DNA of 44,142 bases from Thermovibrio sp. Its GTDB lineage: Bacteria; Aquificota; Aquificia; Desulfurobacteriales; Desulfurobacteriaceae. The stretch's first letter is position 1; the number at the start of each line of letters is the position of its first letter. The position numbers and the translations under genes were made by a program. Positions 10,225 to 14,434 of this stretch are shown here, one piece after another. The DNA lies in contig WFNZ01000031.1 of the NCBI GenBank assembly GCA_015488335.1, forward strand, positions 1 to 44,142, written 5' to 3'. Under the pieces are notes generated by a model, which was not told where the DNA came from, made no database searches, and worked only from the letters and a program-made list of their open reading frames with translations.

Positions 10225-10560
10225 CTATAAGCTCCTGAAACACTCAAGGAGTTTCTCAGCTCTTCCATCGTAGAGGATAACTCCCGTTTTCTTAACCGTT
10301 TCTCTGAAATCGTCTGAAACTAAAGAGAGGTCTACAAGGTCAAAGCTTTTGAGCGTGGGGAACTCCTCAATCTTCGCCATTACGCTAAAAGGGATTTTAG
10401 AGCCACAGTCAACGGCTATGTCAAAGTCTGAATTTTCCCTTGCAGTTCCCTTAGCCCTTGAGCCAAAGAGGTAAATGCGGCAGTTGGGAAGGTATTTAGA
10501 AACTATTTCAACAATTTTCTTCAGTATCTCTTCGTCCGTTAGAAGTCTAACCCTTATCAC
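10225..10560 (-). CDS. Solitary MNT-type nucleotidyltransferase
   Basis: A 111-residue minimal nucleotidyltransferase of the polymerase-beta superfamily with the exact G-S-x10-D-x-D motif (GSRAKG...NSDFDIAV, about residues 33-49). Such proteins are usually antitoxins (MntA) for HEPN toxins, which they nucleotidylate. No HEPN gene adjoins it; the flanking genes are rimO and DUF39. The GTG start overlaps the rimO stop by 14 bases, so it is probably in the queC-selD-rimO operon. It could be a remnant of a pair, could act on the HEPN partner at 13988-14386, or could have another substrate. Confidence 0.85.
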   Translation of the reverse strand: MIRVRLLTDEEILKKIVEIVSKYLPNCRIYLFGSRAKGTARENSDFDIAVDCGSKIPFSVMAKIEEFPTLKSFDLVDLSLVSDDFRETVKKTGVILYDGRAEKLLECFRSL

Positions 10561-11854
10561 CTACAGGCTCTGCCATAAGGTCAACGTTGCTTGCAAGGTC
10601 TGTTATTCTGGCCTTAACGAACTCTCCAGGTTTGAAGTTCCCTTTAAGGTAGATGATTCCGTCTATCTCGTAGGCGTTCCTGTAGCTTCTGGCCTCTACG
10701 AAGCCAGGCATTTCTGAAGAGGGGGAGTCAACAATGAGCTCAAGCTCTTTTCCGATTAACTCTCTATGCTTTTTCTCGTAAATCCAAAACTGGGTCTCCT
10801 CAAGGAGAGAAAGTCTTGATTCTTTTAGCTCTTCCGGAAGATCTCCAAGCTTGTAGGCGGCCGTTCCCTCTTCCCTGTAGTATTTGAAGAAGCCCACCCA
10901 GTCAAGCTCAGCCTCTTTTATAAAGGAGTGGAGCTCCTCAAACTCCGCCTCTCCCTCTGTAGGGAAGCCGACTATAAATGTTGTTCTGATGGCAACTCCG
11001 GGAATCCTCTTCCTGAGCTTCTCTATGAGATTCTCTGCAAACTTCCTTGAGTATTTCCTGCCCATAGAGGCAAGGACTTTGTCGCTTATGTGCTGAAGAG
11101 GAACGTCAAAGTATTTAAGGACTTTCTCAGAGGAAGCTACAAAATCTATGAGTGAATCTGTAATGTGGGACGGGTAGGTATACATGAGCCTTATCCATTC
11201 AATACCCTCAATCTTTTCAAGTTCTCTCAGGAGTTTGACAAGTCCCTCTTTCTCGCCTCTGTCGTAGAGGTAGGCGGTTGTGTCCTGAGCTATAACGTAG
11301 AGCTCTTTCACTCCAAGGTCTGCAAGCCTCTTGGCTTCGTCAACAAGCTCTTCAATTGGTCTGCTCCTTAAAGGCCCTCTGATTAGGGGAATGGCACAGT
11401 AGGTGCAGCCGTTTGAACACCCCTCAGAGATTTTCAGGTAGGCAAGGTGTTTTGGAGTGAGAATCTCCCTTAAAAGGTATGGCTTCTGGAAAGAGGCCTT
11501 TCTGTTTAAAATCTTCTCAACGCTTGAAAGGAGCTCGTTTACGCCGATGAATGCGTCAACTTCAGGGAGCTCCCTCTTTAACTCCTCCTTATACCTCTGG
11601 TAGAGACAACCTGCAACAACAACCCTCTTCTCAGGAGAGTTTTTCTTCTCCTCTATGGCGTTGAGAATCTCGTCTATTGACTCCTCCTTAGCAGGCTGGA
11701 TAAATCCGCAGGTGTTAACAAGGATTACGTCGGCATCCTCCAAACTGTTCACGAACTCAACGTCTCCTGTAGCCTTTAAGAGGCCAACCATGGTTTCAGT
11801 ATCAACAAGGTTTTTAGGGCAGCCAAGGCTTATAACCGCAACCTTTTTCTTCAA
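10547..11854 (-). CDS. rimO: Ribosomal protein S12 methylthiotransferase
   Basis: A 435-residue radical SAM methylthiotransferase that modifies an aspartate of ribosomal protein S12. The N-terminal MTTase domain supplies cysteines 12, 49 and 83 for one cluster. The radical SAM motif SEGCSNGCTYC (C146, C150, C153) binds the second. A C-terminal TRAM-like domain follows. The start ISLGCPKNLVDTE and the GPLRSRP segment distinguish it from MiaB, which is also in the window. It begins 11 bases after the selD stop and overlaps the MNT gene. Confidence 0.96.
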   Translation of the reverse strand: MKKKVAVISLGCPKNLVDTETMVGLLKATGDVEFVNSLEDADVILVNTCGFIQPAKEESIDEILNAIEEKKNSPEKRVVVAGCLYQRYKEELKRELPEVDAFIGVNELLSSVEKILNRKASFQKPYLLREILTPKHLAYLKISEGCSNGCTYCAIPLIRGPLRSRPIEELVDEAKRLADLGVKELYVIAQDTTAYLYDRGEKEGLVKLLRELEKIEGIEWIRLMYTYPSHITDSLIDFVASSEKVLKYFDVPLQHISDKVLASMGRKYSRKFAENLIEKLRKRIPGVAIRTTFIVGFPTEGEAEFEELHSFIKEAELDWVGFFKYYREEGTAAYKLGDLPEELKESRLSLLEETQFWIYEKKHRELIGKELELIVDSPSSEMPGFVEARSYRNAYEIDGIIYLKGNFKPGEFVKARITDLASNVDLMAEPVGDKG

Positions 11855-11865
11855 CTCACTCTCCC

Positions 11866-12903
11866 TCAGTAAACCTTTATTCCGGTTCCCTCCTTAATCT
11901 TACCAACAACCTGAACCCAGGGCTCTCCTTTTTCGCTGAGCCTTGAGAGGAGCTCCGGTAATTTCTCCTCAGGAACGGCAATTAAAAGTCCACCGGAAGT
12001 TTGCGGGTCAAAGAAGAGCATCTTCAAATCTTCATCAAAACCTTCTGGAAACTCCACCGCATCCCCAACGTAGTCAACGTTGTCGTATGTAGCAGCAGGC
12101 AGAAGCCCCATAGAGGCGTACTCTTTAGCTCCGGGAAGGAGCTTAAAGGCAGAGGAATCTATTTCTGCTGAAACTCCGCTGAACTTGACCATCTCGTAGA
12201 GGTGCCCTAAAAAGCCAAACCCTGTAACGTCTGTGCAGGCACTTACTCCAACTGAAACCATAGCCTCAGAGGCAGATTTATTAAGGTGGGTCATAACCTC
12301 AGAAACAGCCTTTACCTCCTCATCTGATGCCATATCTGCCTTTATAGCAGTTGTCAAAACGCCGATTCCCAAAGGCTTTGTGTAGACAAGAACGTCTCCC
12401 GGCTTAGCCGTTGAGTTCCTGACAATCCTTTTAGGGTGAGCGATGCCTGTAACAGAAAGGCCAAATTTTGTTTCAAGGTCGTCAACTGTGTGGCCTCCAA
12501 CAAGGGAAACTCCGGCCTCTTTTAACTTTTCAGCTCCTCCCTTTAAAATCTCTGCCAGGTAGTCCATGGGAACCTTGCAGGTGTCAAACATAACAAGGTT
12601 TATTGCCGTTATGGGCTTTCCTCCCATTGCGTAGACGTCTGAGAGGGCGTTTGCAACGGCAACCTGGCCGTAAACGAAGGGATCGTCAACAACGGGAGTA
12701 ATAAAGTCCGCAGTTTGAATCAGAGCTATCTCGTCTGTAAGTCTGTAGACTCCGGCATCTTCGGCCGTTTCAATTCCAACCAATACGTTTTCATCTACAG
12801 GAAAAGAGACCTTACTCAAAACCTCTGAGAGCCCGACCGGGCTGAGCTTTGCTCCTCAGCCGGAAGCCCTAACGGTTTGGGTCAGTTTAAACTTCCTACT
12901 CAA
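11866..12903 (-). CDS. selD: Selenide, water dikinase; a selenoprotein (Sec at residue 16)
   Basis: SelD makes selenophosphate for selenocysteine and selenouridine. The obvious open frame (to 12819, 317 residues) lacks the N-terminal catalytic loop. Reading through the in-frame TGA at 12856-12858 gives [17 protein letters not shown], exactly where SelD proteins have their Cys or Sec followed by a conserved Lys, and a normal total of 345 residues. A SECIS-like hairpin follows the TGA. The best start is TTG at 12901-12903, 8 bases after GGAGGG and overlapping the queC stop. Other family motifs are visible: GGHTVDD and [10 protein letters not shown]. SelD sits between queC and rimO in one operon. 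Confidence 0.9.
12824..12858 (-). promoter_or_regulatory. SECIS element in selD
   Basis: On the minus strand the UGA (12856-12858) is followed after 17 bases by a GGUC apical loop (12835-12838) closed by an AGCCC/GGGCU stem (12830-12834 with 12839-12843). In E. coli fdhF the loop GGUCU follows UGA at nearly the same distance. An alternative lower pairing, GGCTGAG with CTCAGCC, includes the UGA itself. This supports SelB-dependent selenocysteine insertion. Confidence 0.8.
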
Positions 12904-13603
12904 CTATCTTTCCCTCCTCTTTCAGCCTCTTTATGAGGTGGTCTTCCTCTCCTGCCTCTGCCCATCCTTTAGCCCTTAAGATACAGCTGTCGCACCTCAT
13001 ACAGGGGATTTCCTCCCCTCTGTAGCAGGAGATTGAGTAGGAGTAGTCTGCACCTAAAGAGAGACCAAGCTTTATGATTTCGCCCTTTGTGAGGTTTATA
13101 AGGGGAGCATGAATCTTCCACTGTTTCCCCTCTGCTCCAAGTTTTGTTCCTCTGTTTAAAGCCTCCTCCATAGCTGAGAGGAACTCTGGGCGGCAGTCTG
13201 GGTATCCACTGTAGTCAACGGCGTTCCAGCCTCCTACAAGGTGTGTAGTCCCTCTGCTTTCAGCGTAAGCCGCAGCAATGGAGATAAAGACCCCGTTTCT
13301 AAAGGGAACGTAGGTTATGGGAATCCCTCTCTCCTTTACCTCCTCAACGGAATGGGTTTCAGGAACTTCTAAGTTCCTGTCTGTAAGTGCAGAAGCTCCA
13401 AACTTTGATAAATCAACTTCAAAGAGAATGTGCTCCTTTACTCCGGCATTCTTCGCCGTTATCTTTGCCATTTCTATCTCTATTGAATGCCTCTGGCCGT
13501 AGTAGAAGGTGATGGCGTAAACTTCGTCAAACTGCTTCTTTGCCCAGTAGAGGGCCGTTGTTGAGTCAAGACCTCCCGAGAATATGACCACTGCCGATTT
13601 CAT
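12896..13603 (-). CDS. queC: 7-cyano-7-deazaguanine synthase
   Basis: QueC converts 7-carboxy-7-deazaguanine to preQ0 in queuosine synthesis, an ATP-driven step. The PP-loop SGGLDSTT near the N-terminus binds ATP. C-terminal cysteines in [16 protein letters not shown] form the zinc site. The chosen ATG (13603, 235 residues, starting [11 protein letters not shown]) has GGGAG five bases upstream; a TTG four codons earlier (13615) would put that site inside the gene and is less likely. Its end overlaps the selD start. It is divergent from the HEPN/MNT pair across about 70 bases. Confidence 0.95.
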
Positions 13604-13673
13604 ACTTTCTCCCAAAAGAGTTTTAAGGCTAAGGATATAATAATACCCGTAAACCGGATTTAAGGAGGGTCTT

Positions 13674-13997
13674 ATTCCTCTTGACCTTTCCGTTGATAGG
13701 AAGAGAGAGGAGCGGTTTTTAGAGGAGCTCCGCCAAATCGTCTTAAATCTCTTAAACGGTAAAAATTGCAGAGTCTACCTGTTTGGCTCAAGGGGGAAAG
13801 GGAATTACCGCCGCTCCTCCGATGCCGACATAGCCGTAGAGGGTTTGACTGAAGAAGAATTTAATAGGTTTAAGCTCCTCTTAGATGAGACGGTTGAGGG
13901 GAGCTCCATCCCTTTTACCGTTGACGTTGTTAACCTGAATAAAGTTTCGGAAGATTTTATAAGAGAAGTTCTCAAAGAGGGTATCAGGTGGAAATAA
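13674..13997 (+). CDS. MNT nucleotidyltransferase antitoxin with probable AUU start
   Basis: A 107-residue minimal nucleotidyltransferase with the exact G-S-x10-D-x-D motif (LFGSRGKG...[10 protein letters not shown], about residues 37-55). This is the MntA antitoxin type that nucleotidylates HEPN toxins. The frame is open from 13653 but has no ATG, GTG or TTG before the motif. The only sensible start is ATT at 13674, five bases after a perfect AAGGAGG. AUU starts are rare; E. coli infC and pcnB use one. The last ten bases overlap the GTG start of the HEPN gene, so the two are coupled. A sequencing error near the start is the alternative. Confidence 0.75.
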
Positions 13998-14386
13998 AAA
14001 AGCTGAAAGACCTTGAGAAAGCCCTCAAGAATTTTGAAGAATCCCTCAATATTGAACTCTCTGAATTTCCGCCGTCTGTAAGGGACGTTTTAGAGAGCGG
14101 GCAGGTTCAGAAGTTTGAAGTGAGTTACGAGCTTTTTTGGAAAGTTGGGAAGGAGCTTTTTTCAGAAGAAGGTATAGACGCAGGTTCTCCACGCAGAGTT
14201 TTCAAAGCCTTGTTTCAACTTGGCTACTTAACGTATGATGAGTTGGAACTCTGCCTCTCTATGGTCAGCGACAGAAATCTCCTTCCCCACGTCTACCGCC
14301 GTGAGGTTGTGGAGTCTGTTCTACCCAAACTCAAAAACTACCTAAATTTGATGAAGTCAGCTGTTTCCGATTTAAAGGAGCTTTAG
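13988..14386 (+). CDS. HEPN toxin, HI0074/HepT-like
   Basis: A 132-residue helical protein of the nucleotidyltransferase-substrate-binding (HI0074) group of HEPN proteins. Near its end it carries the full R-x4-H-x-Y motif (R96, H101, Y103 in DRNLLPHVYR). R and H form the RNase site in the family, and the tyrosine is the residue modified by the MNT antitoxin in type VII systems. It starts at GTG and overlaps the upstream MNT gene by ten bases. Together the two genes form a complete toxin-antitoxin pair between queC and glyQ. Confidence 0.88.
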   Translation: MEIKKLKDLEKALKNFEESLNIELSEFPPSVRDVLESGQVQKFEVSYELFWKVGKELFSEEGIDAGSPRRVFKALFQLGYLTYDELELCLSMVSDRNLLPHVYRREVVESVLPKLKNYLNLMKSAVSDLKEL

Positions 14387-14405: not shown

Positions 14406-14434
14406 TTGACGACCCATAAACAACAAAATAAAAT
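14406..14434 (+). promoter_or_regulatory. Promoter of glyQS
   Basis: TTGACG (14406-14411), a 17-base spacer, then TAAAAT (14429-14434), about 34 bases before the glyQ start codon and 20 bases after the HEPN stop. It allows glyQS to be expressed independently of the toxin-antitoxin pair. Confidence 0.7.

Follow-up and report, generated by a model that had tools for sequence, protein, structure and literature searches.

The antitoxin gene of a HEPN/MNT toxin-antitoxin pair, located in the window analyzed here (the whole stretch of 44,142 nt), very probably starts at an AUU codon, and this start is strongly supported by its conservation in four genomes of one genus of Desulfurobacteriaceae and by a GTG codon at the homologous position in a sister genus. 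Our overall reading, which we consider probable, is that a Class I HEPN/MNT operon was inserted between queC and glyQ in a Thermovibrio-like, deep-branching hot-vent bacterium of this family, that its antitoxin is translated from AUU with initiation held low, and that translation of the HEPN toxin is coupled to that of the antitoxin. While the HEPN/MNT module itself is already known, we have found no description of an antitoxin whose AUU start is conserved across a lineage; a search of open-licence papers for antitoxins with AUU starts returned nothing relevant. To our knowledge, very few genes other than infC naturally start at AUU.

The MNT frame lacks a canonical start codon before its catalytic motif

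The MNT frame extends from stop to stop across positions 13653-13997 of the plus strand, preceded by a TAA at 13650-13652 and closed by a TAA that ends at 13997. The initial annotation had claimed that no ATG, GTG or TTG precedes the active-site motif, and this is borne out, as the first such codon in the frame is a TTG at codon 65 (13845), 3´ of the GS-x10-DxD motif (Table 1). Internal initiation at this TTG was considered and rejected, since the catalytic motif would be removed. Initiation upstream in another frame followed by a frameshift was also rejected, as positions 13585-13680 of the plus strand contain no ATG, GTG or TTG in any frame. The ATT at 13674 had been proposed as the start on the basis of a well placed AAGGAGG, and we likewise find the Shine-Dalgarno sequence TAAGGAGG ending 5 nt before the ATT. 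The Shine-Dalgarno sequence is near perfect in two of the genomes with ATT, G000 (the genome of the window) and G001, and reads AAGGGGG in the other two, G003 and G005. The 3´ end of the 16S rRNA was absent from the assembly of this genome in a pattern search, and the anti-Shine-Dalgarno sequence complementary to TAAGGAGG is thus assumed.

Table 1. Features of the HEPN/MNT locus and its flanks, in window coordinates.
Feature	Position	Strand	Evidence and remarks
TATAAT, candidate -10 element	13636..13641	+	Read from the sequence, by inference only; identical in four genomes
Shine-Dalgarno sequence TAAGGAGG, 5 nt spacer to ATT	13661..13668	+	Core AAGGAGG at 13662-13668
Probable ATT start codon of MNT	13674..13676	+	Shared by four genomes; the homologous position is GTG in the sister genus
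MNT antitoxin gene, minimal nucleotidyltransferase, 107 aa	13674..13997	+	PF01909 (2.1e-9) and PF18765 (1.1e-12), both above cut-off
GS-x10-DxD catalytic motif, exact	13785..13829	+	Sequence motif
HEPN toxin gene, HI0074 family, 132 aa, GTG start, TAG stop	13988..14386	+	PF08780 (6.4e-19)
Q41-x-x-E44	14108..14119	+	By alignment, counterparts of Q44/E47, the Mg2+ site in Legionella HEPN (PMC11586414)
R-x4-H-x-Y, exact (RNLLPHVY; R96, H101, Y103)	14273..14296	+	Sequence motif
Probable glyQ promoter TTGACG-17-TAAAAT, right flank of the pair	14406..14434	+	10/12 matches; counterpart read in the empty G004 site

The candidate TATAAT would put the start of the mRNA near 13648, giving a 5´ leader of ~26 nt without a canonical start codon. 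No good -35 element was found for this TATAAT, which was not listed by a promoter scan. In all four genomes with ATT, the Shine-Dalgarno sequence is predicted to pair with codons 1-4 in a hairpin (13661-13685). The stability of this hairpin did not exceed that of shuffled sequence (z 0.23 to 0.90), and it may be incidental, particularly if the growth temperature is high.

ATT is found in one genus at the position of a canonical start in relatives

Eight of the 22 Desulfurobacteriaceae genomes searched have an MNT orthologue. All four orthologues from the genus of the window (G000, G001, G003 and G005) have ATT 37 codons 5´ of the GS, with ATG, GTG and TTG all absent ahead of the motif. The initial annotation had suggested a comparison of starts in homologues, and in both genomes of the sister genus (G010 and G015) a GTG is found at the homologous codon and not elsewhere, also 37 codons from the GS and, in G010, 5 nt downstream of a GGAGG. 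The N-terminus PLDLS(V/I)D is common to the ATT and GTG orthologues. Because the sister-genus GTG sits at the position of the ATT and is followed by the same residues, Ile/Met-Pro-Leu-Asp-Leu is the homologous N-terminus. The more distant orthologues, in G009 and G014, have a TTG 39 codons 5´ of the GS. By comparison, then, one lineage carries ATT where relatives carry a canonical codon at one homologous position.

The absence of a canonical start also sets this gene apart within its family. Of the 57 distinct MNT-type frames compared across all examined loci, a canonical start lies 20 or more codons 5´ of the GS in 51. The remaining six comprise the four ATT orthologues, a frame cut short by an internal TGA and a frame with a short N-terminus, so that the ATT orthologue is the only intact gene in this set without a canonical start. 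A coding survey of the window's genome (227 kb of 1.65 Mb, 240 coding-like frames) gave a similar picture, with MNT the only intact gene in the surveyed 227 kb whose coding signal clearly precedes the first canonical start. The other strong cases in the survey were two decayed MNT remnants, a coaD-like frame extended upstream, a frame close to a contig end that follows an in-frame stop, and a short unassigned frame.

We also considered that an error of sequencing or assembly masks an ATG, GTG or TTG start, as the genome assembly is fragmented. Four genomes, however, have the same ATT and start-less frame, and three of them correspond to distinct GenBank MAG entries (WFYG01, JALUGO01 and JALTBO01), making such an error extremely unlikely. 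With four genomes in agreement, a base-calling error at the ATT is excluded for practical purposes, and the canonical start that the initial annotation thought a sequencing correction might reveal did not emerge. G000 and G001 are nearly identical across the 5´ half of MNT, probably as a result of recombination, and because of this near-identity the four genomes correspond to approximately two to three independent observations. The retention of ATT over a dS of ~0.4 is modest evidence, rather than strong proof, of selection on the ATT itself.

Both genes show signs of purifying selection

For MNT, dN/dS is 0.12-0.27 within the genus (pairwise NG86, with dS up to 0.46) and 0.12-0.2 between the more distant genomes of the ATT set. 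For HEPN, dN/dS is 0.115 between G000 and G005; the HEPN comparison with the sister genus, where an indel is unaligned, was left out. These values indicate that MNT is under purifying selection and is not an unexpressed relic. Because such a dN/dS is not expected of a gene without its start, they also argue that the MNT start was not lost before the species split.

These data bear on the possibility that MNT is a pseudogene whose start has been lost, with HEPN alone expressed from its own GTG. The missing canonical start would be explained in this way, and the decay of the toxin in two relatives and of other MNT copies in the window's own genome (described below) points in the same direction. 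We nevertheless find a pseudogene quite improbable given purifying selection on MNT among genomes that all have ATT, a Shine-Dalgarno sequence at the right distance and a catalytic motif that is intact in three of the four; moreover, a toxin without its antitoxin would be expected to be lost.

The pair was probably inserted between queC and glyQ, and the toxin has been lost in two relatives

The pair sits between queC (12896-13615, minus strand) and glyQ (plus strand, from 14468). In G004, of the same genus, and in G010, of the sister genus, queC and glyQ are divergent, with ~83-86 bp between the matches and no pair at this site. Given these two empty sites, the most economical interpretation places the insertion of the pair between queC and glyQ within the genus of the window, upstream of the glyQ promoter.

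In G001 and G003, ~277 nt of HEPN have been deleted with an identical junction just 3´ of the MNT stop; what remains of the HEPN 3´ end is frameshifted, and MNT is retained (locus L002, 1840-2000, in G001; locus L004, 1840-1975, in G003). The retention of the antitoxin after toxin loss fits a real toxin-antitoxin relation. The G003 MNT has additionally lost the glycine of the catalytic motif (GS to SS). For G001, the end of contig C43 (L002) and the start of contig C34 (L071) overlap by exactly 151 bases (k151 appears in the record name), starting from the HEPN deletion junction. An assembly graph yields such an overlap when two versions are present, which suggests that two versions coexist in the G001 sample, probably toxin-intact and toxin-deleted strains.

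Additional MNT-related sequences were observed outside the queC-glyQ site. On contig C52 of G000 (L083, 1807-2265), a decayed MNT with ATA in place of a canonical start and an internal TGA precedes a HEPN remnant limited to the C-terminal part with R-x4-H-x-Y. On contig C23 of G000 (L146, 16480-17020, minus strand), a HEPN follows what remains of an MNT, namely its C-terminal half; the GS/DxD half is gone, and a coaD-like gene lies directly upstream. A second MNT gene in the window (10230-10562, minus strand) is apparently solitary, with no HEPN directly after it and a GTG that overlaps the end of an upstream radical-SAM (RimO-like) gene. G003 and G005 have MNT frames that match this solitary gene in a comparable position.

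The history of the queC-glyQ pair raises the alternative that AUU is used as the start without any regulatory role, as a weak start that is tolerated and arose by drift once the pair had reached its present site, given that few molecules of a catalytic antitoxin are needed and that the toxin itself is being lost. The deletion of HEPN in G001 and G003 and the change of GS to SS in G003 would then reflect weak or fading selection, and conservation of the ATT is compatible with shared descent. On the other hand, dN/dS is still low for MNT between the more distant genomes and for HEPN, the Shine-Dalgarno sequence remains near perfect in G000 and G001, and no genome has reverted to ATG even though ATT is only one base away. 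We regard drift to a non-regulatory AUU as possible, though we lean against it.

The pair is best called a Class I HEPN/MNT module

Class I HEPN/MNT pairs have been defined by a neighboring PF01934 or PF08780 and PF01909 together with both sequence motifs (Yao et al., PMC7641770). Here, MNT matches PF01909 with 38.1 bits (cut-off 21) and HEPN matches PF08780 with 68.6 bits (cut-off 31.8), the genes overlap by 10 nt, and the exact GS-x10-DxD and R-x4-H-x-Y motifs are present in MNT and HEPN, respectively, as the initial annotation had reported in calling these motifs the signature of type VII systems. HEPN is also above the curated cut-off of TIGR01987, the HI0074 family (68.6 vs 55.8 bits). 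The scores for the NCBIfam equivalogs are below their cut-offs, both for MntA (NF047752, 49.7 vs 60) and for HepT (NF047751, 21.3 vs 60). PADLOC gave weak PDC-S09 matches only for MNT and no match for HEPN. With every sequence feature of the definition in place, the pair is best called a Class I (type VII) HEPN/MNT module of the HI0073/HI0074 type. In the G005 orthologue of HEPN, a leucine replaces Q41.

An AUU start may hold expression of both proteins low

In Class I pairs, HEPN is a toxic RNase and the antitoxin is catalytic, AMPylating the tyrosine of the R-x4-H-x-Y motif of its own toxin. In the mechanism we propose, the strong Shine-Dalgarno sequence would recruit the ribosome to MNT, with AUU acting as a weak start and IF3 proofreading lowering MNT initiation further. 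Because the HEPN start overlaps the MNT stop, HEPN would be translated mainly by coupling to MNT, and this same overlap means that the weak MNT start probably lowers both proteins and not the antitoxin alone. Rather than a shortage of antitoxin, the expected outcome would be that both proteins are scarce, roughly in proportion, and a catalytic, toxin-AMPylating antitoxin could tolerate such low output.

Low or IF3-sensitive expression of MNT, as put forward in the initial annotation, is plausible by analogy with known AUU biology. A more specific proposal, that initiation of the antitoxin (and of the toxin by coupling) is sensitive to IF3 such that the IF3-to-ribosome ratio would shift type VII output, seems to us doubtful. 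If it is true, stress or ribosome damage would change toxin-antitoxin output via this ratio, and there would be feedback between initiation fidelity and an RNase toxin that attacks the translation machinery.

The start codons of infC in the same clade (loci L034 in G000; L032, L035-L037, L039, L040, L042, L043 and L045) bear on the use of such starts. In the genus of the window, infC starts at ATC (AGGAGG-TTAGCC-ATC); an in-frame TTG found upstream in G000 is not conserved. In several other genera of Desulfurobacteriaceae, infC starts at ATT, and the ATC and ATT starts alike have a strong Shine-Dalgarno sequence. This comparative evidence indicates that initiation at AUC and AUU occurs in the clade and, by analogy with E. 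coli, IF3 may regulate its own synthesis here as well.

Every conserved AUU start marks a gene for which low expression may be important. An antitoxin of this kind would be missed, or given the wrong start, by gene finders restricted to ATG, GTG and TTG, leaving what appears to be an orphan HEPN toxin. For a possible link between IF3 and a toxin-antitoxin system, the sister-genus GTG orthologues and the toxin-deleted version provide natural comparisons.

Comparison with known systems

The pair resembles HepT/MntA of Shewanella (PMC7641770) in having an adjacent MNT with GS-x10-DxD and HEPN with R-x4-H-x-Y, and differs from it in scoring under the MntA and HepT equivalog cut-offs and in the AUU start of its antitoxin. 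The closest functionally characterized HEPN by sequence (E 3.6e-8) is that of the Legionella pneumophila HEPN-MNT system (PDB 8xdj and 8xeh; PMC11586414), in which the Mg2+ site Q44/E47, and not R-x4-H-x-Y, was proposed as the RNase center. R-x4-H-x-Y is kept in the putative toxin described here, and the Mg2+ residues correspond to Q41/E44. The text of the L. pneumophila paper does not mention the start codon (PMC11586414). Haemophilus HI0073/HI0074 and Thermus TTHA0048/TTHA0636 belong to the same protein families by profile and PDB sequence match. The more distant homologues from the loci examined here, which are distinct from HI0073 and from those of Thermus, contained no intact gene with a non-canonical start.

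With respect to the start codon, the nearest parallels are found outside toxin-antitoxin systems. In E. coli, infC and pcnB have AUU starts (PMC9410913), in agreement with the initial annotation. In S. aureus, a 2026 study described conserved starts with extended Shine-Dalgarno sequences for cvfC1 (AUU) and ccpN (AUA), and reporters with an AUU or AUA start gave ~10% of AUG expression in poor medium (PMC13009471). MNT is like cvfC1 and ccpN in its AUU or AUA start, extended Shine-Dalgarno sequence and conservation among relatives; unlike MNT, these genes and infC and pcnB of E. coli do not encode antitoxins. Defined as genes with a true AUU, AUC or AUA start that is conserved in relatives, the type exemplified by infC and pcnB appears, by comparison of sequences, to extend to the MNT antitoxin.
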